DNA of 64,000 nucleotides, taken from Spraguea lophii (lineage: Eukaryota > Microsporidia > Spragueidae). The DNA lies in contig LDOQ01000311.1 of NCBI GenBank assembly GCA_001887945.1, positions 1-64,000 on the forward strand, given 5' to 3'. The position numbers and the translations under genes were made by a program. This document shows, piece after piece, positions 2,452-61,172 of this stretch. The notes beneath the pieces are model-generated. The model did no database searches. It was not told where the DNA came from and saw only the letters and a program-made list of their open reading frames with translations. Every line of letters begins with the position of its first letter. The first letter of the stretch is position 1.

Positions 2452-4059
2452 TTATTCTTCTATTGAGGATTTTAAAAATTCAGTGAAAATTTTATTGGGC
2501 TTATTTTTTCTAGCCGTCAATTCTGGATGGTATTGAGTTCCAACGAAAAATTTTAAATTGGGGATTTCTAAAATTTCCATTCTCTTTCCTATTTTATCTG
2601 TTGCTACGAAGTGCATACCATTCTTTTCTATCTCTTCGATGTATTTTATATTTACTTCGTATCTATGACGATGTCTTTCAGTTATGTATTCTTTATTGTT
2701 AAATACCTTTTTAACCCTTCCTTCACGCCTAAAATAGGTTTTAACATCACCCAATCTCATAGTACCACCTATTTCTTTATTATGTTCTCCCATATAAATA
2801 ATCACAGGATTATTTGAATCAGGATCAAATTCAGCAGATGTAGCATCATTAATACCAAGAACGTTTCTACAGAATTCTATTACTGATAATTGAAATCCTA
2901 AGCATATTCCCAACAAAGGTATATTTTGTTCTCTTGCAATTCTAATGGCATTAATTTTACCTTCTGTTCCTCTGCTACCAAAACCACCTGGTATTATAAC
3001 TCCATCAACACCACTAAGATCATAATTTCCATTTTCTTCAAATAGATCAGAGTTGATGTATTTTATTTTGATGTTAGTTTTTAATTCTTGCGCAGAAAAC
3101 GTCAAAGCTTTGTTAATAGACAAATAAGCATCTACATTTTCTGTATATTTTCCTATTACACCAATACTTACCTCCCTGTCATATTCTTCAGTTGGATTAT
3201 CAGATTTTATAATGCCTTCCTTCTTCTTGATTAATTTCAGCTGGTCAGAAATTATTTTATAAATATTTTGTTTTTCTAAAATTTCTGGTATTTCTTCTGT
3301 GTTTTTAACCACTGGAGAATAAAATACAGAATCTTTAGCAACTTCGCAAAAATTAGATATTTTAGATCTTATACCATCATCTAAACTTTCAGAAGAGTTG
3401 CATACAATAATATCGGGATTTATACCCAATAAGTTTTGCTTTTTAGAAGCATTTTGAATAAGTTTTGTTTTTATTTCTCCATTGGATAGAGTAGGAAGAT
3501 AATCCACTGAAATAAATAAAATATTTTCTTTTCCAACCTTCAACTTTAGTTGTCTTAAAGCTTCACAGAAAATATTAGATTCTATATCACCTACAGTACC
3601 CCCAAGCTCTACCATACATACTTCTGCATTAACATATTCATCACCTTCAATTCCCTTTTTCAATGGCTTCTGTGCGCCATGTATTATTTTCTCCATTATT
3701 AAATCTGTTACATGTGGAACACACTGAACGGTCTTTCCAAGATATTTACCCTCTCTTTCTCTTTTTATAATTTCTTTGTAAATTTTACCCGTAGTAATAG
3801 AATTATCTACAGTAAATGAAACATCCAACAATCTTTCATAAGATCCAAAATCTAAATCTACTTCTGCACCATCTCTCAAAACGAATACTTCTCCATGATC
3901 TATTGGAGAAATGGTTCCACAATCAACATTTAGATATGGATCGATTTTTATGAAATTAACCACATGACCATAAGTATCTAATATTTTTGCAATTGAACTA
4001 CCAACTACACCTTTGCCAATACCAGATATTGTTCCTCCGCAAACAATTATGTACTTCAT
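2452..4059 (-). CDS. URA7: CTP synthase
   Basis: It makes CTP from UTP, ATP and glutamine in the cytosol, the last step of de novo pyrimidine nucleotide synthesis. The 535-aa protein has both domains. The N-terminal amidoligase domain carries the P-loop GGTISGIGKG (8-17), the substrate motif DPYLNVDCGTISP (about 40-52) and GGTVGDIES (153-161). The C-terminal class I glutamine amidotransferase domain (about 297-535) has the nucleophile Cys386 in GICLGFQ and His511/Glu513 in YHPE. Yeast enzymes are about 580 aa, so the C-terminal tail is trimmed. The start is fixed by TTTACCC directly before the ATG on the minus strand. Its product feeds ECT1, encoded in the same window. Confidence 0.97.
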   Translation of the reverse strand: MKYIIVCGGTISGIGKGVVGSSIAKILDTYGHVVNFIKIDPYLNVDCGTISPIDHGEVFVLRDGAEVDLDFGSYERLLDVSFTVDNSITTGKIYKEIIKREREGKYLGKTVQCVPHVTDLIMEKIIHGAQKPLKKGIEGDEYVNAEVCMVELGGTVGDIESNIFCEALRQLKLKVGKENILFISVDYLPTLSNGEIKTKLIQNASKKQNLLGINPDIIVCNSSESLDDGIRSKISNFCEVAKDSVFYSPVVKNTEEIPEILEKQNIYKIISDQLKLIKKKEGIIKSDNPTEEYDREVSIGVIGKYTENVDAYLSINKALTFSAQELKTNIKIKYINSDLFEENGNYDLSGVDGVIIPGGFGSRGTEGKINAIRIAREQNIPLLGICLGFQLSVIEFCRNVLGINDATSAEFDPDSNNPVIIYMGEHNKEIGGTMRLGDVKTYFRREGRVKKVFNNKEYITERHRHRYEVNIKYIEEIEKNGMHFVATDKIGKRMEILEIPNLKFFVGTQYHPELTARKNKPNKIFTEFLKSSIEE

Positions 4060-5289: not shown

Positions 5290-5730
5290 TGTCTAGTCCA
5301 AGTTTCTCATCGGAATAGATTAAGAAACAAAAAAAATTATATCGCTAAGATAAAAAAAAATATGTTAAATGTGTGAAAGTTTGACAGTGTAGATTGATTG
5401 TGTCTTATACAACGGATGATTACCGAATTGAAGTAGTTAGTTGGTGTAGTTACAATACCCTTATTTATTAGTGACTCCGACAGTATTATGTCGAAAAGGG
5501 AGGTTAAAATCCAATTAAATCTCATAGAATAATGGTTGCATTACACGCAAAATCAGTAACGTTTTATATAATTAATATATAACTTTTTTTAAATTAATAT
5601 TTTTATTACTAAAAATGTCCTAAATCGTGAGCCAAGATGAAATTAATACATATATGTATTTAAGACAATTCATCATATATATTATTTATTTCAATGAACT
5701 AACAATCTTAGACTATGGTATACCATAGTT
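5290..5730 (+). mobile_element. SINE copy (decayed), plus orientation
   Basis: This is a strongly diverged copy of the dispersed tRNA-derived element. The best conserved block is at 5420-5480 (GTAGTTACAATACCCTTATT, then a GTGACTC-like stretch). It corresponds to the part between the tRNA-like head and the 3' end in intact copies. The A and B boxes are no longer recognisable, and the 3' end survives as an ACTATGG-like remnant near 5712. Confidence 0.6.
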
Positions 5731-6274: not shown

Positions 6275-6710
6275 AACTTTATTTATAGAAGTTTTTTGGG
6301 TGTTTGCGGTTTATGACTTTAAATTCTTGGAGTATATTTTTAAACTTATGCTAACCGACATATATGGATTAATCTCATCTTACCGCATACTCCATAGTGT
6401 TGTGAATTTGTGTAATGCTGCCACCGTCTATCCTGATTACTTCGATATTTATATTTTGCTTGCCATAGTGCTGGCTAAATCACAAATTAATACAGGGATT
6501 TCAACTACACAAGCTAAATACCACTTTAATCTGGTAATAGCCATCGTTAAAAACACGCTAAACTACGTTATCGAACCCTTACCCACTTAACTATCTTTTC
6601 TTTATCTTTCCTGCCTCTTGTTTTTTTAAAAATTCTCTATGTGAAGGATTCGAATCCTATACTTGAAATTTGGTTACATCCACGACCACTCAGTTAAGTG
6701 GGCCTTCAAC
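6275..6710 (-). mobile_element. SINE copy, minus orientation, moderately diverged
   Basis: The tRNA-like head lies at about 6640-6708. Read on the minus strand it keeps a B-box-like stretch (GGATTCGAATCC, with one change from consensus) and an A-box-like AGTGGTCGTGG. The body at 6450-6560 matches the other copies (AATTAATACAGGGATTTCAA). An open frame of 96 codons at 6300-6590 is only the element read backwards, not a gene. Confidence 0.8.
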
Positions 6711-20382: not shown

Positions 20383-20395
20383 TAATAAAAAAAGA

Positions 20396-20887
20396 TTTTT
20401 TTTTTACGAATGAAATTTTATTTATCAAAGCTTCCTGGCCGGTTGCGGCCTACCATGGTCTGTGACCTTCGGTTCCTCGAGCGACATTAAACTTGTACTA
20501 ACTGGTTTCGCTACAGATATGCATTAATCTCATCTTACCTTATACTCCAGAGTGTTAGGATTTTGCGTATGGTGCGCGTCGCCGCCCCCACTTCCAGCTC
20601 TTAAGGAATTCCCAGCCTCTTTCGTTGCATAGTATTGGCCGAGTCACAAATCAATACAGGGATTGCAACTACATCAGCTAAACACTACTTTAATCTAGTA
20701 GCGGGGCCGTCATACAAGGCACAGCTATGCTGCGCTATCGAAACCTCACCCACTCAACAACCTTTTTCTCTCTTCTCCGTTTATTATTATTCTTTTTTTG
20801 TTTTGAAAATTTTTCTGGATGAGGGATTCGAACCCGCCAGGCTTGGGGTTTGGTTACCACCCCACGACCACTGGGCCAGGCGGGACT
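20396..20887 (-). mobile_element. SINE copy A, full length, minus orientation, with 13-bp target duplication
   Basis: This is a full copy of the dispersed element (about 490 bp). Read on the minus strand it starts with a tRNA-like head at 20887-20815. The A box is TGGCCCAGTGG and the B box GGTTCGAATCC, both good matches to the RNA polymerase III consensus. The body is comparatively GC-rich (a GCGCGTCGCCGCCCCCAC patch at 20571), and the element ends in an A-run (T-run at 20396-20405 on the plus strand). The 13-bp sequence TAATAAAAAAAGA flanks it exactly at 20383-20395 and 20888-20900. A tRNA head, A-tail and target duplication together are the hallmarks of a SINE. Copies B and C are nearly identical. 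Confidence 0.88.
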
Positions 20888-20929
20888 TAATAAAAAAAGA
20901 GATAAATAAATATTTCATCACCCTTAAGA

Positions 20930-21859
20930 ATGGTGAATGTATGGGCAGATGGTTGTTATGATGTATTTCATTATGGACATGCAAGAGGTTTAAAACAAGC
21001 GAGAGAAATGGGTGATAAGGTTATAATAGGTGTTCATACCAATAAAGATATTGAAGAGAATAAATCCTTACCTGTGCTTTTTGATAATGAAAGGGTAGAA
21101 TGTGTTAAAGCATGTAGATGGGTGGATGAAGTAGTATTAGGATCACCATTTGTAACAAATATTGATATTGTTAAAAAATATGGTTGTGATATTATTATGC
21201 ATGGAAATGATCCTATTTCTGATGTTTCGGGGGAAGATTGTTATGCATATGCTAAAAAAATGAATATGTTTAGAGAATTTGATAGAACGCCTACTACATC
21301 AACAACAAATATTATAGGAAGAATGTTACTTAGGAAAAATAAAATATATCATGTGGATAGTAAAAGATTGGAAGAATATGAAAAGGAGTTGGCATTACCA
21401 AAAAAGGAAAGAAATGGTAAAATAGGATATATTTTTGGTACATTTGATCTTTATCATGCAGGCCATGCAGCAATACTTAAAGAGGCAAAAAATAGATGTG
21501 ATTATCTTATTTTAGGATTATTTACAGATAAAAAAGTTAAGGAGGTAGAAAATATATATCCATTATTAAATTATAAAGAAAGAAAATTAACATTACTTTC
21601 TAATAGATACATAGATGAGATAATAGAAGCGCCAGCAGAATTAAATATACAATTCATAGAAGAAAATAAAATAGAAAAAATATATAAAGGAAAGATACTT
21701 AATAAGAATTATAAAGATGAATTATATTTAATAGAAAAAAATAAAATAGAAGAAATAGAAACAGAATATAGTTATCTTACAGCAGAAGTCATAGCAAAGA
21801 GAGTGTGTGATAATTATACGTTGTATGAAGAGAGACAGAGAAAGAGAGGAGCAAAATAA
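20930..21859 (+). CDS. ECT1: Ethanolamine-phosphate cytidylyltransferase
   Basis: It makes CDP-ethanolamine from CTP and phosphoethanolamine, the rate-limiting step of the Kennedy pathway to phosphatidylethanolamine. The 309-aa protein has two cytidylyltransferase folds. The first has HYGH at 14-17 and RTPTTSTTNIIGRMLL (119-134, cf. RTxGVSTTDLVGRML). The second has GTFDLYHAGH (170-179). The two-domain form identifies the ethanolamine enzyme; the choline enzyme has one. The C-terminal LTAEVIAKRV...YEERQRK also fits. CACCC stands 10 bases before the ATG. A SINE ends only 43 bp upstream of the start, so the native promoter must be very short or displaced. Confidence 0.95.
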   Translation: MVNVWADGCYDVFHYGHARGLKQAREMGDKVIIGVHTNKDIEENKSLPVLFDNERVECVKACRWVDEVVLGSPFVTNIDIVKKYGCDIIMHGNDPISDVSGEDCYAYAKKMNMFREFDRTPTTSTTNIIGRMLLRKNKIYHVDSKRLEEYEKELALPKKERNGKIGYIFGTFDLYHAGHAAILKEAKNRCDYLILGLFTDKKVKEVENIYPLLNYKERKLTLLSNRYIDEIIEAPAELNIQFIEENKIEKIYKGKILNKNYKDELYLIEKNKIEEIETEYSYLTAEVIAKRVCDNYTLYEERQRKRGAK

Positions 21860-22125: not shown

Positions 22126-23439
22126 ATGCATAATAATTTTAATCCCAATACTTTTGAAAATTCTTTTGTACATGATTTCTATACCAAACATTCTAATGAA
22201 TTTAATAAATCAAGAATAAACGCATGGTCTTTCATCCCATCATTTTTTAAAAAATATTATAAAAAAAATATGATAATATTAGATAATGGATGTGGTAATG
22301 GTAGAAATATAATAAAAAATAATACAATAGCAATGGATATATCAAAAGAGTTATTACATAAATGTAAAGAAATAAAAGTATTAAAAGTTAAAAATAGTGA
22401 TATAAATGATAGTAATATAAAGAGAAATATAAATGATAATATTAATACTAATGATAATATAAAGAATAATAATAATCATGATAATATAACTAATATAAAG
22501 AATAACACTAATATAAATAGTAATATAACTAATATAAAGAATAACACTAATATAAATAGTAATATAACTAATATAAAGAATAACACTAATATAAATAGTA
22601 ATATAACTAATATAAAGAATAACACTAATATAAATAGTAATATAACTAATATAAAGAATAACACTAATATAAATAGTAATATAACTAATATAAAGAATAA
22701 CACTAATATAAATAGTAATATAACTAATATAAAGAATAACACTAATATAAATAGTAATATAACTAATATAAAGAATAACACTAATATAAATAGTAATATA
22801 ACTAATATTAATACTAATATAAAGAGAAATATAAATATTAATACTAATGATAATATAAAGAGTAATATAAAGGATAACAATGTTAAAACAATAAACGAAT
22901 TAAAGACTAAAATACCTATAGATCTTATTCTATGTAATGGAATATCTACATATTTTAAATATAATACATTTGATATTATATTATCTATATCTGTTATACA
23001 CCATCTATCAACAGAAGAAAGAAGAATAGAATATCTTAAAGAATGTAAGAGAATATTAAAAGATAAAGGATATATGCTAATATATGTATGGAATATAAAA
23101 ATAAAATATAAAAGTAAATTCAGAAGTTTAAAAGAATATAACACTAAAGATAAAGAGATAAGAGATATTAATAATTTAAATTGTAATATAGATAATAACA
23201 ATATTACTAATAATGGTAATAATGATAATAACACTACTAACAATACAATAACAAATAATGATAATAATATTTTTAATGATAATGATTTTATAGCTATTTG
23301 GAATAAGAAAGAAGAAATGAAGAGATATTATCATTTATTTTCTATGGAAGAAATAGAAGAATTATGTATAAGTGTAGGATTAAAAATATTAGAGAAAGGA
23401 TATGATAAAGAGAGTATATATTTAGTTCTTACTAAATAA
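22126..23439 (+). CDS. TRM9: tRNA wobble-uridine methyltransferase TRM9, with repeat insertion
   Basis: This is a SAM-dependent methyltransferase that, with TRM112, finishes mcm5U at the tRNA wobble position. The N-terminus (VHDFYTKHSNEFNKSRINAW) and the SAM motif ILDNGCGNGRN (about 51-61) match TRM9, as do FDIILSISVIHHLST (motif IV region) and LKECKRILKDKGYMLIYVW. Between SAM motif II and motif IV lies an Asn/Ile/Thr-rich insertion of about 165 aa, containing eight identical 13-residue repeats. A second Asn-rich stretch interrupts the C-terminal part. Without these, the length (about 230-250 aa) is normal. ATCCC stands 6-9 bases before the ATG. Confidence 0.85.
   Translation: MHNNFNPNTFENSFVHDFYTKHSNEFNKSRINAWSFIPSFFKKYYKKNMIILDNGCGNGRNIIKNNTIAMDISKELLHKCKEIKVLKVKNSDINDSNIKRNINDNINTNDNIKNNNNHDNITNIKNNTNINSNITNIKNNTNINSNITNIKNNTNINSNITNIKNNTNINSNITNIKNNTNINSNITNIKNNTNINSNITNIKNNTNINSNITNIKNNTNINSNITNINTNIKRNININTNDNIKSNIKDNNVKTINELKTKIPIDLILCNGISTYFKYNTFDIILSISVIHHLSTEERRIEYLKECKRILKDKGYMLIYVWNIKIKYKSKFRSLKEYNTKDKEIRDINNLNCNIDNNNITNNGNNDNNTTNNTITNNDNNIFNDNDFIAIWNKKEEMKRYYHLFSMEEIEELCISVGLKILEKGYDKESIYLVLTK
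22483..22808 (+). repeat. Coding minisatellite, eight identical 39-bp units
   Basis: Units of 39 bp start every 39 bases from 22483 to 22756 and are identical as far as I can read. A partial ninth unit starts at 22795. Each encodes ITNIKNNTNINSN in frame inside TRM9. The absence of substitutions between units suggests recent expansion or ongoing homogenisation. It is not a CRISPR array, since there are no spacers. Confidence 0.9.
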
Positions 23440-29299: not shown

Positions 29300-29690
29300 C
29301 CCTGAATTTAATGGTTGCTTGATATAACCAAATCATAAGGTTAATAAGTTCAAGTTTACCACGCTCAGAAAGATTATCAAAACAAAAAAAAAATAAAAAG
29401 AACATAGATAAGTATAAGAAATTTCAATGTGTAACTTAACAATGTTTTCTATATCAAATTCATCGTCAAATTAAAGTGGTACTCAGTTAGTGTAATTTTT
29501 ATACCTGAATCAATTAATGATTCGGTAAATATCATATCAAGATAAGAATCTCAATAAGAATGTTATAATAAAATATATAATATATTAACATCTTAGAATA
29601 TAAAGCAAGATGGGATTAATGTATATATATAACAAACCCAGTTAATACAAATTATCATTGTTTTAAAAAAACACGTAATTTCATATTATG
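29300..29690 (+). mobile_element. SINE copy, decayed, plus orientation
   Basis: The head (about 29305-29380) aligns with AGTGGTCG...GGTAACCAAACCCC...AGTTCGAATC of intact copies in degraded form (TATAACCAAATCATAAGG, then AAGTTCAAGTTTACC). The middle TAAAGTGGTACTCAGTTAGT (29473) and the 3' part GATGGGATTAATGTATAT (29610) followed by CCCAGTTAATACAAATT (29638) match the common body. There is no clear target duplication. Confidence 0.65.
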
Positions 29691-39112: not shown

Positions 39113-39572
39113 CTCGCTCAGCCCAGTGGTCGTGGGGTGGTAACCAAATTCCAAGCCTGGCGAGTTCGAATCCTCATCCGAAAAATTTTCAAAAAAACAT
39201 AATAATAAAAGGTTGTTGAGTGGGTGAAGGGTTCAATAGTGTAATATTGGATATGTTTTGTATGACAGCCTATTACTCAATTAAAAAATAATGTTTAGCT
39301 GGTGTAATTGCAATCACTGTATTGATTTGAGACCCAACCAATACTATGCTAAGAAGGAGGTCAGAATTCAGTTCAGGATAACAGAATGATGTTTTTACCG
39401 TATGTAAAATCCTAACGTTCTGGAATATAGGTAATATGAGATCAATGTATAATATATAATGAAACCAATTAATACAAATTTAAATATGCTTTAAAACCCC
39501 AAGGTCATAGACTACGGTAAACTAAAACCTGTCAGAAAATTTCCATAAATAAAAGTTTCATTTAAAAAATAA
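39113..39572 (+). mobile_element. SINE copy, plus orientation, moderately diverged
   Basis: The tRNA-like head is well kept (AGCCCAGTGGTCGTGGGG, 39119-39136, and GAGTTCGAATCC at 39163). The body has GTTTAGCTGGTGTAATTGCA (39293) and the 3' end AATAAAAGTTTCATTT (39547). Its GC-rich centre has decayed. It lies 45 bp beyond the 3' end of CCR4. No convincing target duplication. Confidence 0.85.
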
Positions 39573-46613: not shown

Positions 46614-47102
46614 TTTTTTACGAATGAAACTTTTATTTATCAAAGCTTCCTGGCCGGTTGCGGCCTACCATGGTCTGAGACCTTCGGTTCCTCGAGCGAA
46701 ATTAAACTTGTACTAACTGGTTTCGCTACAGATATGCATTAATCTCATCTTACCTTATGCTCCAGAGTGTTAGGATTTTGCGTCTGGTGCGCGTCGCCGC
46801 CCCCACTTCCAGCTCTTAAGGAATTCCCAGCCTCTTTCGTTGCATAGTATTGGCCGAGTCACTAATCAATACAGGGATTGCAACTACATCAGCTGAACAC
46901 TACTTTAATCTAGTAGCGGGGCCGTCATACAAGGCACAGCTATGCTGCGCTATCGAAACCTCACCCACTCAACAACCTTTTTCTTCTCTTCTCCGTTTAT
47001 TATTATTCTTTTTTTGTTTTGAAAATTTTTCTGGATGAGGGATTCGAACCCGCCAGGCTTCGGGTTTGGTTACCACCCCACGACCACTGGGCCGGGCGGG
47101 AC
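46614..47102 (-). mobile_element. SINE copy B, full length, minus orientation
   Basis: Nearly identical to copy A at 20.4 kb and copy C at 54.3 kb, with intact A box and B box. It is flanked by TAATAACAAGAGA (46601-46613) and TAATAATAAGAGA (47103-47115), a 13-bp target duplication with one difference. It lies inside a Merlin-type element. Confidence 0.87.
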
Positions 47103-48227: not shown

Positions 48228-48683
48228 ATGAAACTTTTGTTTATTAAAATTTCCTGGCTTGCCGCGACCTATCATGGCCTATGATCTTTGGTTCTCAAAG
48301 CACGTTTAACTTCTACTAATTGGCTTAGCTACAGATACATATTAATCTTATTTTATCTTATGCTTCAAAACGTTGGGATTTGATGTATAATGCACGTTAT
48401 TACACATTCTCAGCTTTTTTAGAAATTTCTAGTTTATTTCTTAGCATAATATTGACTAGCTATAAATAAATGTACTGATTGCAATTACACTAGTTAAACA
48501 TATTTTAATCTAATAATGGGCCCGTTATATAAAACATAACCAATGTTACGCTATCGAACCCTCATTCATTCAACGATCTTTCTCTTTATTTCTGCTTTTA
48601 TTTTTTTTTAAAATTCTTCTGGATGATTATCGAACCAGCTGCTTAGGATTTGGTTACCATCCCAGACCACTGGACCAGGCTAG
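48228..48683 (-). mobile_element. SINE copy, minus orientation, diverged
   Basis: The 3' end matches intact copies (TTCCTGGCTTGCCGCGACCT near 48249), as does the body (48470-48560). The head near 48610-48683 keeps TTTGGTTACCATCCCAGACC but its B box is damaged. It sits just after the secreted orphan gene. The duplicated region at 57.3 kb has a SINE in the same place, so this insertion predates that duplication. Confidence 0.8.
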
Positions 48684-52018: not shown

Positions 52019-52807
52019 AAAATTGATTTTTAAATAATATTTATTTTATTATTTTAAAATAAAGTTTTTGTTTATATATTTCTCATGTTTTTATTATGCA
52101 CGGGCCCGCTTGGTCCAAAGGTCGTGAGGTGGTAGTCACATCTTAAGTTAGCGATTTGAGTCCTTCACCCAGAAGAATTATCAAAAAAATAAATAAATAG
52201 GAGTGGAAGGTTGTAAGTAGATGAGGGTTCGATAACTCAGCATTGGCTGTACCTTATATGGTGATCCGCGACTAGATTAAAGTAATGTTTAACTCCGTAA
52301 TTCCAATGTCTATATTGATTTGGGCTCGACCAATATTATGCAAAGAAAGAGGTTAGGAATTTCGAAAAAATTGTGAGCGTCGCAACGTATACCATGCGTA
52401 AAATCATAATGTTCTGAAGCATGAGGTAAGATATGATTAACGTATATTTGTAGCGAACCAGTTACTACAAGTTTAATTGTGTTTAAGAGTCAAAGGACAG
52501 CAGCCGCCTAGAAAATTTTATAAATAAGAGCTTCATTAAAAAAAGTCGAATTTAATTACTAAATTGTATTTTGGAAACTTATGCTAAAAAACTATTTTTA
52601 TTTAATATTTAGTTTCTTAAATATCTTAAAGATGGGAAGGTCATTCTTTGAAAGATGCTGTTTAATATATCAATCATTTACTTTTCATCAGCCATCTTCT
52701 TTTATTGCGTATACAACAATGTTAAATTTTGTTAGCTCATTTCTATATACTTTATGCAATCGTGAATAAAACAATGTGTACAGCGTTAATTATTCAGTAA
52801 CATAAAA
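51800..52807 (+). repeat. Segmental duplication 2, copy 1 (LRR tail + SINE + flank)
   Basis: It matches 58785-59840 in the same order: LRR gene 3' end, TTTTAAATAATATTTATTTT spacer, a plus-orientation SINE and the tail repeat also present at 14.2 kb. Copy 1 ends where the UTP15-tail duplication begins, at an ATATCACTGATAAT sequence. Confidence 0.85.
52103..52535 (+). mobile_element. SINE copy, plus orientation, diverged
   Basis: The head begins GCCCGCTTGGTCCAAAGGTCG and has a GATTTGAGTCC remnant of the B box. Body and 3' end are recognisable (TTGATTTGGGCTCGACCAAT near 52315). It is shared with copy 2 of the duplication at 59.05 kb, so it inserted before that duplication. Confidence 0.8.
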
Positions 52808-53595: not shown

Positions 53596-55255
53596 TTGTC
53601 GTGGGCAATTACATTTTTTTAGCCAAAGGATTCTCAAGAATTGTAAGATTTTAAAATTAATTTATTAGAAGATAACACACTCAAAAAAGATGGGGTTGCC
53701 AACCTGCTCAATATTTATATCAAGATGGAGGGAAAAAAAGAGGGAGTTTTTGACAGTTACAAAAAAGATAATTTTTATTATCTATTTTATAAATATAAAA
53801 AATGTTTAATAAACCATACTTAAATCATAGAAACTTTTTTTGAAAATATAAAAATTATCGTAATTTTTATTCGAAAAAGCTTCTTTAATAAAAAGTAATA
53901 TTTCTTTTCTTATAATATTGATCAATCTCTTTATTCTTTTATAACAATCAATATGCCATGGTAAATAAAGGTTCTTTTTAATATATGAATAATGTACTGG
54001 ATATTTTAATGTAACATTATAAGTTACAAAAAACAACATAAAGATTAGATATTTGAAAATGGATATAAAAAATAATTTTATTAAAGAATAAATATAATAA
54101 TTTTAATTGTTTAAGATTATAAAAAAATTTAAAATAAGAATAACAGAAATGTATTTATTGCATTTAACTTTAAAATATCTTAACTTAATCTATCATATCG
54201 TGGAGATATATAATTTTATTAGTCATTGGTTATTCAAATGAAGATAGGCTGAAAAAATTAATTTTTTAAAATAAAATACCCGCCCGGCCCAGTGGTCGTG
54301 GGGTGGTAACCAAACCCCAAGCCTGGCGGGTTCGAATCCCTCATCCAGAAAAATTTTCAAAACAAAAAAAGAATAATAATAAACGGAGAAGAGAAGAAAA
54401 AGGTTGTTGAGTGGGTGAGGTTTCGATAGCGCAGCATAGCTGTGCCTTGTATGACGGCCCCGCTACTAGATTAAAGTAGTGTTCAGCTGATGTAGTTGCA
54501 ATCCCTGTATTGATTAGTGACTCGGCCAATACTATGCAACGAAAGAGGCTGGGAATTCCTTAAGAGCTGGAAGTGGGGGCGGCGACGCGCACCAGACGCA
54601 AAATCCTAACACTCTGGAGCATAAGGTAAGATGAGATTAATGCATATCTGTAGCGAAACCAGTTAGTACAAGTTTAATTTCGCTCGAGGAACCGAAGGTC
54701 ACAGACCATGGTAGGCCGCAACCGGCCAGGAAGCTTTGATAAATAAAAGTTTCATTCGTAAAAAAAATTTAAAATAAAAAAAAATATGTAATTTGGTTTT
54801 TTTAAAAATATTAAAAATTGGAAAAGAAAACACCAAATCCATTGTTTCTTTCTGTAATCTTGAAATATCTTTCTAATTTGTACGGTAAATATATATCTTA
54901 ATGGGAAAAAATTTATGTAAAAAAACCTACTTAAGACATAATCTGAAAAGAAAATAAAAACACCATTTATTATAAATATATAATGGCTAGCTACATACAG
55001 AATATTGGATTATGGGATAATCTCTATAATAGTTTTTTTTGAAAAAAATTAATTGCCCGCGGGTAAACTTGCAAAAAACAGGGAAAAAAGAAGAAGAAAG
55101 AAGAAAAGACCATACATATAACTAATAATTTTTAATTCTAAAACTTGGACTAGCAAGCCATTGTCTTTTCGCGTGTAGTGGCCAAGTTCAATTAAATAGA
55201 AGTCTAATATTTTTCATAGAAAAATATTGTCCTCCTATTTAATTGCCCTCGGCAA
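53596..55255. mobile_element. TAA-flanked DNA element (PIF/Harbinger-like) with nested SINE
   Basis: The ends are 16-bp imperfect inverted repeats: TTGTCGTGGGCAATTA at 53596 and, on the other strand, TTGCCGAGGGCAATTA ending at 55255. TAA flanks both ends (53593-53595 and 55256-55258), and the empty site at about 45612 has a single TAA. This is direct evidence of an insertion of about 1.66 kb. A third similar end, TTACCCGCGGGCAATTA (minus strand, 55050-55066), suggests a composite or nested structure. Internal open frames (e.g. 53806-54039 minus, 77 codons) match no transposase I recognise. The TAA target fits PIF/Harbinger, but this is inference. Confidence 0.7.
54277..54767 (+). mobile_element. 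SINE copy C, full length, plus orientation
   Basis: It is nearly identical to copy B. The head is at 54280-54350 with A box (GGCCCAGTGG) and B box GGTTCGAATCC, then the GC-rich centre (GTGGGGGCGGCGACGCGCAC) and the 3' end ATAAAAGTTTCATTCGTAAA. Flanking TTTAAAATAAAA occurs at 54265-54276 and 54768-54779. It is nested in the TAA-flanked element. Confidence 0.87.
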
Positions 55256-57280: not shown

Positions 57281-57745
57281 TATGAAACTTTTGTTTGTTA
57301 AAGTTTTCGGGCTGGCCACGGCCTATCATGGCCTATGTTTTTGGTTCTCAAAGTACGTTTAAACCGTACCACCCGGCTTAGTTACAGATACGTATTATTC
57401 TCATTTTATATTATGCCCGGGTCGTTGGGATTTTGCGCATAATGCACCTTATTACACATTCTCAGTTTTTTAGAAATTTCTAGTTTATTTCTTAACATAA
57501 CATTGACTAAATCACAAATCAAGACTGCGATTGTAATTATGCCAGTCAAATACTATTTACCTGATGGCGGACCGTTATATAAAACATAACCAATGTTACG
57601 CTATCGAACACTCGTTCATTCAACGATCTTTCTCTTTATTTCTGCCTTTTGTTTTTTTTCGAAAATTATTCTGGATGAGGGACTCAAACCCGCTGGGCTT
57701 AAGATTTGGTTACCACCCTAGGGCCATTGGATCAAGTGAGCTTTC
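57281..57745 (-). mobile_element. SINE copy, minus orientation, diverged
   Basis: In the same position as the 48.2-kb copy relative to the duplicated gene. The head near 57670-57745 keeps TTTGGTTACCACCCTAGGGC, and the B box is altered (GGGACTCAAACCC). It was copied with the duplicated region rather than inserted anew. Confidence 0.8.
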
Positions 57746-58784: not shown

Positions 58785-59840
58785 AAGTATAATTTTCATA
58801 TTGGGAAATATGGAATTTATACATAAAAATGCATCTGAAATATAAATAAAAAGATTATAACCATTGAAATTAATTACGTCTTCAGCTAACTTATTTTCGT
58901 CAATTATGCGTGGACAAAATAATATTAATATTTTATATAAACGCGTGTACGACAATAATCGTGAAACTTCATTTTAAAAATTGATTTTTAAATAATATTT
59001 ATTTTATTATTTTAAAATAAAGCTTTTGTTTATATATTTCTCCTGTAAATATTATGTCCGGTTTCGCTTGGTCCTGTGATTGCGGGGTGATAGTCACATT
59101 TCAAATTTAACGAGTTTGGGTCCTTCACCCAGAAAAATTTTCAAAAAATAATAATAATAAATAGAAGCGAAAGGTTATTAAGTCGGTGGGACTCATTGGG
59201 GAACATTGGCTGTGCCTGTACAACATTTCACATCTAGATTAAAGTAGTGTTTAGCTGGTGCAATTACAATCCACGTATTGATTTGTGACTCTGACAATAT
59301 TATGCCGAGAAAAAGATAAGAAATCTCTAAAAAACTGGGAGCTCTGACAATATTATGCCGAGAAAAAGATAAGAAATCTCTAAAAAACTGGGAGAACGGC
59401 AACGTGCACCATACGCAAAACTTTAACACTCTGATGCATAAGGTGAGATTAGAGTAATGCTTATCTGTAGTGAAACCAACTAGTACAAGATTAGATGTAC
59501 TTTAGGAATCGAAGGGCATAAACCATGGTAAGCTGCAAGTAATCAGAAAACTTCTATAAATAAAAAACTCATAAAAAAGCCAGATTTAGTTAATAAATTG
59601 TTTTTGAAAAACATATTTTTATTTAATATTCGATTTCTTAAATATCTTAAAGATGTGAAGCACATTCTTTGAAAGATGCTGTCTAATATGTCAACCATTT
59701 ACTTCCTATTAATTACCTTCTTTTATTGCATATACAATAATGTTAAATTTTGTTAGTTCATTTCTATATATTTTTGCAATCGTGAATAAAACAATGTGTA
59801 CGGCGTTAACTAATCGTAATATAAAATATCACTAATAAGA
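58785..59840 (+). repeat. Segmental duplication 2, copy 2
   Basis: It repeats 51800-52807: LRR gene 3' end, spacer, SINE and tail repeat, ending AAAATATCACTAATAA where the other copy joins the UTP15 segment. The Merlin element lies directly at its left edge. Confidence 0.85.
59050..59580 (+). mobile_element. SINE copy, plus orientation, with internal 53-bp tandem duplication
   Basis: The head at 59060-59135 is altered (B box GAGTTTGGGTCC). The body holds a perfect 53-bp tandem repeat, 59289-59341 and 59342-59394, that other copies do not have. The 3' end is recognisable (59500-59575). Confidence 0.8.
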
Positions 59841-61026: not shown

Positions 61027-61172
61027 AGCATAAGGTAGATGAAATTAATGCATATCTGTAACGAAACCAGTTAGTACAAGCTTAGATGTATTTGAGGACC
61101 CGAAGGTCACAGACCATGATAGGCCGCAACCGACAGGGAACTTTGATAAATAAAGGTTTCATTGATAAAAAA
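61027..61172 (+). mobile_element. 5'-truncated SINE with 14-bp target duplication
   Basis: Only the last 146 bp of the element are present (AGCATAAGGTAGATGAAATT to the A-run). GGATTTGATTGAGT (61013-61026) and GGATTTGATTGGGT (61173-61186) flank it exactly, with one difference. A 5'-truncated copy between target duplications is the expected product of incomplete target-primed reverse transcription. Confidence 0.88.

Follow-up and report, generated by a model that had tools for sequence, protein, structure and literature searches.

Microsporidia are a standard example of genome reduction. For this group, Table 2 of PMC3614468 contains a row for an unnamed SINE class in Nosema bombycis (28,669 bp, 0.18%), and PMC6416283, as far as its accessible text extends, mentions SINEs in general terms only. 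AfuSINE2 of Aspergillus fumigatus is found among the tRNA-related SINEs of fungi (PMC5063351). In the accessible part of that report, fungal SINEs combine Pol III head features with a tRNA-unrelated region, are flanked by duplications of 4-14 bp and measure 140-493 bp, and one family resembles a LINE-like sequence. In the UnaL2/ZfL2 SINE-LINE pairs, according to the accessible part of PMC4176376, the SINE 3′ end matches that of a LINE from the same genome, and the common portion includes hairpins. Each of these traits has a counterpart in the element described here.

The window, i.e. the whole stretch of DNA that was analysed, comprises 64,000 bases, in which a preliminary inspection (the sequence-only reading) had recognised a repeated element as a tRNA-derived SINE. 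Our main reading, to which we assign a probability of about 0.88, is that a SINE of 484 bp plus an A tail is copied through RNA, would be transcribed by RNA polymerase III (Pol III) from internal boxes, and would be mobilised by a resident LINE via a matching 3′ part. As a genuine SINE with a LINE partner, it is of a known kind.

The element and its copies in the window

The assignment of the DNA to a microsporidian genome was borne out by the Rpn11 gene of the window. Its named matches of the same length are mostly microsporidian, the top identity being 60% (a partial record from Pseudoloma neurophilia). Better E-values, at 50-53% identity, were obtained for three longer proteins from animals and plants; our guess is that their scores are probably summed over two domains. 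In a tree of 18 rows, the window protein is located among core microsporidia (open fork, 84/90), without a supported sister, and outside the group of animals, plants and fungi (100/99). A microsporidian SSU rRNA model gave no match in the assembly, which is why Rpn11 was used for the placement, and a 6PGD protein search gave no indication of the host. One Piwi-domain (Argonaute) gene is present at C56:134645-135547, so part of the RNA interference pathway has been kept.

The sequence-only reading had placed a 490-bp element at 20383-20900. The element is real, measuring 484 bp plus an A tail in the majority of 60 full-length copies, but it lies on the minus strand. Read in this direction, the order is duplication, head, A-rich linker, body, LINE-like 3′ block, terminal 28 bases, poly(A) and duplication. 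The features of this reference copy are listed below; the two boxes are named after what we take to be their consensus.

20888..20900, minus strand: 5′ target site duplication, 13 bp, exact match to 20383-20395
20406..20886, minus strand: SINE, young full-length copy, 98.3% identical to the majority
20868..20878, minus strand: A box TGGCCCAGTGG, by the presumed consensus
20824..20834, minus strand: B box GGTTCGAATCC, by the presumed consensus
20433..20487, minus strand: block common to the SINE and the LINE 3′ UTR, 46/55 against the C21 LINE
20406..20433, minus strand: terminal 28 bases matching the LINE terminus, 20/28 between SINE majority and LINE majority
20396..20405, minus strand: poly(A) tail, 10 A, read from the sequence
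20383..20395, minus strand: 3′ target site duplication, 13 bp, exact match to 20888-20900

The SINE is non-coding, as the sole ATG-initiated ORF of at least 40 aa at this copy has 43 aa and starts outside the element. At 20886-20930, about 43 bp separate the SINE head from the start of a downstream cytidylyltransferase-like ORF, encoded on the opposite strand, so that the putative Pol III promoter of the SINE adjoins the promoter region of this ORF. At 22126-23439 there is a methyltransferase-like ORF (assigned by eye) with many in-frame Asn-rich unit repeats.

All twelve places to which about twelve copies or fragments had been assigned contain the element. As a number of separate insertions, however, twelve does not stand, because four of the old copies (48.2/57.3 and 52.1/59.1 kb) represent two insertion events in segmental duplications. 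Altogether, SINE matches account for 4,286 of the 64,000 window bases (6.7%). Three copies are young (20406-20886, minus; 46620-47102, minus; 54279-54759, plus), and the long old copies at 6.36, 39.1, 48.2, 52.1, 57.3 and 59.1 kb are 66-72% identical to the young majority. Apart from the reference copy, the window contains the following (percentages are identities to the majority):

46620..47102, minus strand: SINE, young full-length copy, 13-bp duplication with one mismatch
54279..54759, plus strand: SINE, young near full-length copy, 12-bp exact duplication
39121..39562, plus strand: SINE, old copy, 72%
48228..48680, minus strand: SINE, old copy, 71%, insertion shared with 57282-57730
57282..57730, minus strand: SINE, old copy, 68%, insertion shared with 48228-48680
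52105..52478, plus strand: SINE, old copy, 72%, insertion shared with 59065-59565
59065..59565, plus strand: SINE, old copy, 66%, insertion shared with 52105-52478
6358..6690, minus strand: SINE, old copy without 3′ end, 68%
61027..61163, plus strand: SINE 3′ fragment, 87%
5427..5490, plus strand: SINE fragment, 76%
29369..29402, plus strand: SINE fragment, 88% across 34 bases
29600..29653, plus strand: SINE fragment, 80%

The segmental duplications of the window comprise 44849-45624/52806-53597 (92% identity), 47424-48724/56485-57780 (84%) and 51820-52819/58778-59838 (75-83%). One of them has a 5S rRNA gene in both copies. Another contains the paralogous ORFs 47554 and 56613; ORF 47554, the one tested, has no Pfam match. 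Since the two old SINE pairs are located inside segmental duplications that are 75-84% alike, those insertions are older than the duplications. No aligned empty site for the young SINE copies was seen in the window's segmental duplications.

Genome-wide copies, insertion signature and head

The assembly searched has 5,273,041 bases in 73 contigs, the window being bases 1-64000 of contig C18. A first look yielded 445 SINE candidates, the best 40 of which were scored; of the resulting rows, 40 are long (95-100% identity) and four are partial (76-83%). A 29-base pattern from the SINE 3′ tail occurs, with up to three mismatches, at 147 places in the genome; read backwards, the same pattern occurs at none. 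From 73 loci we assembled a set of 60 full copies by leaving out L131 (no SINE match), 11 clearly 5′-truncated copies, old or partial extra matches and copies with a 5′ flank that had already been counted. The 60 copies diverge from their majority by 0.2-5.8%. At 13 sites a second base is common to at least nine of them, which suggests several source copies. For the old-copy majority, one member of each duplicated old pair was omitted; the old layer includes 12 matches of at least 120 bp, ten of which were counted as independent. Judging from these divergences, the family was active over an extended period: the old copies are 65-77% identical to the majority, and those of a recent burst differ from it by 1.5% on average, although the counts provide no young-to-old ratio for the genome because the young copies were picked by searches that favour the best matches. 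Six contigs (C15, C25, C54, C56, C58 and C60; L068-L073) start at the same SINE base, plus or minus one, and the repeated SINE explains such assembly breaks inside a repeat. No match to the SINE head was found in viral contigs.

For the three full copies in the window, flanking duplications of 12-13 bp had been reported previously. They are exact at 20.4 kb (13 bp) and 54.3 kb (12 bp), but the 13 bp at 46.6 kb contain one mismatch. The sequence-only reading had regarded the absence of duplications from other genomic copies as an argument against a SINE; in fact 51 of the 60 full-length copies have them, counting those with up to one mismatch, as compared with 6 of 235 mismatched flank pairs. 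In this call a net score of at least 10 was demanded, and 5′ and 3′ flanks from different copies served as controls. Exact duplications of at least 12 bp flank 44 of the 60 full copies versus 0.1% of the mismatched pairs. Among the 46 copies with exact duplications of at least 11 bp, the length ranges from 11 to 17 bp with a mode of 14, and the tail opens with at least six A in 45, in line with the A-rich 3′ end noted before. Seven of the 11 clear 5′-truncated cases have a duplication of 11-16 bp at the truncation point, a count made without a shuffled control.

Nine of the 60 full copies have no duplication at the one-mismatch threshold, and three of these nine reside in inverted pairs whose flanks match crosswise. 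Two such pairs were observed, L030 (C45:92442-93687) and L118/L119 (C1:142809-144268), the second of which was spotted by eye. Together they involve the three full copies lacking their own duplication and one truncated copy. Their crosswise flanks reflect either inversion through the SINEs or misassembly.

In the SINE majority, the A box starts at position 9 and the B box at position 53, a spacing that we take to be approximately that of a tRNA gene. Each young copy contains the B-box pattern GGTTCGANTCC once, and these three occurrences are the only ones in the window, where 0.03 would be expected. The strict A-box-plus-B-box pattern is present in the 20.4 kb copy only; the copies at 46.6 and 54.3 kb contain CGGCCCAGTGG, which is one base off the strict pattern. 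Thus, of the near-consensus boxes attributed to three full copies, the B box holds for all three, but the A box is strict at 20.4 kb only and deviates by one base in the other two. With boxes above chance, the SINE head is a candidate internal Pol III promoter.

The proposed tRNA origin of the head fared less well. The A and B boxes do have tRNA spacing, but a tRNA search of the head, as suggested by the sequence-only reading, returned no tRNA with either ARAGORN or Rfam, and no particular parent stands out among the 50 tRNA genes compared. These 50, of which 47 are distinct and none is a tRNA-Tyr, were drawn from 57 genome tRNA matches. The best value is 55.8, for a tRNA-Ser; pairs of tRNAs for different amino acids average 46.3 (sd 11.3), so the similarity is no better than between unrelated tRNAs. 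A tRNA fold of the head was not found; a long hairpin was obtained instead, with a stability that does not exceed that of shuffles (z -0.44). For the SINE body, there was no match to a known RNA family in Rfam. Since the head has neither a recognisable tRNA nor a significant fold, we consider "tRNA-type promoter" the safe wording.

The 3′ end and the resident LINE

A partner LINE had been predicted to lie outside the window, and a likely partner that has the SINE 3′ end in common was indeed located elsewhere in the same genome. An RVT_1 profile search of the genome gave nine matches. One of them, at the start of contig C72, belongs to a non-LTR element with weak matches to PF14529 (endonuclease) and PF00078 (reverse transcriptase, RT), both below the Pfam cut-offs. 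Its protein relatives are distant, one of them being named LINE-1 reverse transcriptase-like (Smittium culicis). The catalytic half extends beyond the contig boundary, and the initial portion of the endonuclease is in another frame. Contig C21 contains a reading frame, the C-terminus of which resembles what we take to be a zinc knuckle, followed by a 3′ UTR and poly(A). Because a decayed copy on C1 joins C72-type RT sequence to a C21-type 3′ end with no poly(A) in between, we treat C72 (5′ half) and C21 (3′ end) as one LINE family. A complete LINE was not found in the assembly, as the C72 5′ half and the 3′ ends from C21 and elsewhere are on separate contigs, and there was no intact RT core of the partner among the RT matches of the assembly. 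Apart from its catalytic core, the missing LINE has likely been identified. Duplications of 12 and 10 bp flank two short LINE 3′ ends, which indicates that the LINE integrates in the same way as the SINE.

Copies of the partner LINE are located within about 1.2 kb of contig ends on C63 (both ends), C11, C21, C34 and C72, and others are internal. The terminal copies may be subtelomeric or merely mark assembly break points. On C21, a short TTAGG-like repeat occurs near LINE sequence (L067, about 3545-3570). At L067:2009-2076, a 68-bp piece of the LINE RT region (99% identical) directly follows a LINE poly(A) and precedes an ORF1-like start, possibly as a result of template switching or as part of a LINE array. 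The C48 LINE was rejected as the source of the 3′ end, since beyond the decayed C48 RT there is a complete SINE that has a duplication of its own. Several of the nine RVT_1 matches are Ty3-like in our reading; reading frames of Ty3-like LTR retrotransposons were seen at C73:39646-41190 and C44:26817-29869. On C2 (L044:3925-7641), an open frame of 1239 aa with Asn-rich inserts has a weak RT match and is possibly, as a guess, a telomerase reverse transcriptase.

In a 6-kb comparison, a 55-bp block of the C21 LINE 3′ UTR matched the SINE at 84% identity (E 5e-12). When the last 130 bp of the SINE were compared with the C21 3′ UTR, the local score was 39.0; the maximum was 15.5 among 2000 dinucleotide shuffles and 15.0 among 306 genomic stretches. 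A search of the genome with the LINE 3′ end, in which the best 40 of 109 candidates were scored, gave at least 41 matches. Among the matches listed, 16 rows are LINE-like and 25 contain the block alone, as expected of SINE copies. Nine of the LINE-like rows listed span the block fully (C21, C63 twice, C11 twice, C61, C27, C67 and C5). Since these nine 3′ ends span the block and C1 has it in the same place, the block belongs to the LINE; a nested SINE fragment in C21 was ruled out by the identical position of the block in other LINE copies.

An alignment of ten LINE 3′ ends with the SINE revealed two common blocks. Relative to a LINE majority built from nine 3′ ends, the decayed C1 copy being omitted, the SINE majority matches at 44/49 positions in the block and at 20/28 at the terminus. 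The terminal value was attained by 1 of 780 control sequences preceding A-runs. Against C21 alone the terminus matches at 18/28 positions, attained by 3 of 334 controls, and against C1 at 14/28.

The shared 3′ block could, as a possible but tentatively held alternative, be an inherited remnant without a present role, poly(A) alone being used by the same or another LINE. Such relaxed use would suit the fact that SINE and LINE both terminate in poly(A), and that the SINE does not contain the approximately 125 bp by which the two common blocks are separated in the LINE 3′ UTR. It would also fit a block that is not better kept than the rest when old and young SINEs are compared (0.75 of columns conserved versus 0.82-0.92 elsewhere), and whose two hairpins have modest stability (z -2.35 and -1.23 in young SINE and LINE) and no covariation. 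On the other hand, the two-hairpin block folds alike in the young SINE and the LINE, and both the block and the terminal 28 bases have been retained in the two elements at the levels given above.

Proposed cycle, alternatives and known systems

In the reading that we prefer, a SINE mobilised by the resident LINE, Pol III would transcribe the SINE from the A and B boxes in its head. The LINE protein, with its AP-type endonuclease and reverse transcriptase, would take the SINE RNA as substrate; we propose that it does so because the two-hairpin block, the terminal 28 bases and poly(A) match the LINE 3′ UTR. The enzyme would then nick AT-rich DNA and prime reverse transcription on the poly(A), leaving duplications of about 14 bp and an occasional 5′-truncated copy. 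Target-primed reverse transcription is the established mechanism for this class of elements, and the combination of poly(A), variable duplications, 5′ truncation and shared 3′ end points to its execution by a LINE enzyme. Those parts of the scheme that can be read in the DNA itself are the copy number, the duplications, poly(A), 5′ truncation, the boxes, the shared 3′ modules, and an endonuclease-like region and RT start in the LINE.

Pol III boxes, several source copies as suggested by shared variable sites, and a lack of Rfam matches that leaves room for an undescribed RNA would also be found if the copies did not form a self-sufficient SINE lineage but were retropseudogenes dispersed from a host Pol III RNA gene with a cellular function. 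We consider this improbable, as a host RNA would not need the LINE-like 3′ module and the element has many copies of two ages. Short, multicopy and flanked by duplications, the element could superficially pass for a MITE or for the end of a larger DNA transposon, the latter having been named by the sequence-only reading as an outcome that would speak against a SINE; nothing points there, since the duplications vary from 11 to 17 bp, poly(A) is present at one end, and truncation affects the 5′ side while the 3′ end is kept, which makes this origin very improbable. Equally improbable is copying by enzymes of the resident Ty3-like LTR elements, which do have open reading frames in this genome, because the SINE 3′ end matches a LINE and LTR integration generates short fixed duplications without poly(A) or 5′ truncation.

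Returning to the SINE with a LINE partner, we lean towards a more far-reaching interpretation, though with reservations. The two elements would be the first SINE-LINE parasitic pair characterised in Microsporidia. The SINE would be expanding, or would have done so until recently, in a small genome with a retained Argonaute gene. The head would be a Pol III promoter that has lost its tRNA fold, and the 3′ module an internally deleted LINE 3′ UTR. If this holds true, the SINE 3′ module represents a naturally minimal substrate for the reverse transcriptase of the partner LINE. In addition, the pair provides a small natural experiment on which portion of the LINE 3′ UTR is required by the enzyme. 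A SINE that accounts for 6.7% of the window and has its own LINE also implies that a reduced genome can host a parasite of a parasite. Furthermore, every SINE copy, together with its duplication, can serve as a neutral marker of insertion, and two segmental duplications have already been ordered relative to SINE insertions.

The sequence-only reading knew of no described SINE family in microsporidia, and none was found in the accessible literature, many subscription papers lying outside the search. The term SINE is absent from the accessible main texts, supplements aside, of PMC4202319, PMC3486916, PMC7313128, PMC12449221, PMC13174016 and PMC10542269. The absence of a described family has to be qualified by the class tabulated for N. 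bombycis (PMC3614468), which shares with the present element the SINE label in a microsporidian genome, but which in the accessible part of that paper is a table row alone, with no family, sequence, duplications or LINE partner given. Fungal SINEs, as described in the accessible part of PMC5063351, are low-copy and were traced to particular tRNAs, whereas the present element has 147 tail matches in a microsporidian assembly of 5.27 Mb, no traceable tRNA, and a poly(A) end shared with the resident LINE. In comparison with the UnaL2/ZfL2 pairs, as far as the accessible text of PMC4176376 describes them, the present pair, in which recognition of the SINE by the LINE enzyme is a proposal, differs in that SINE and LINE alike terminate in poly(A) and that the larger of the shared blocks has an internal position, about 125 bp of LINE sequence being missing from the SINE.
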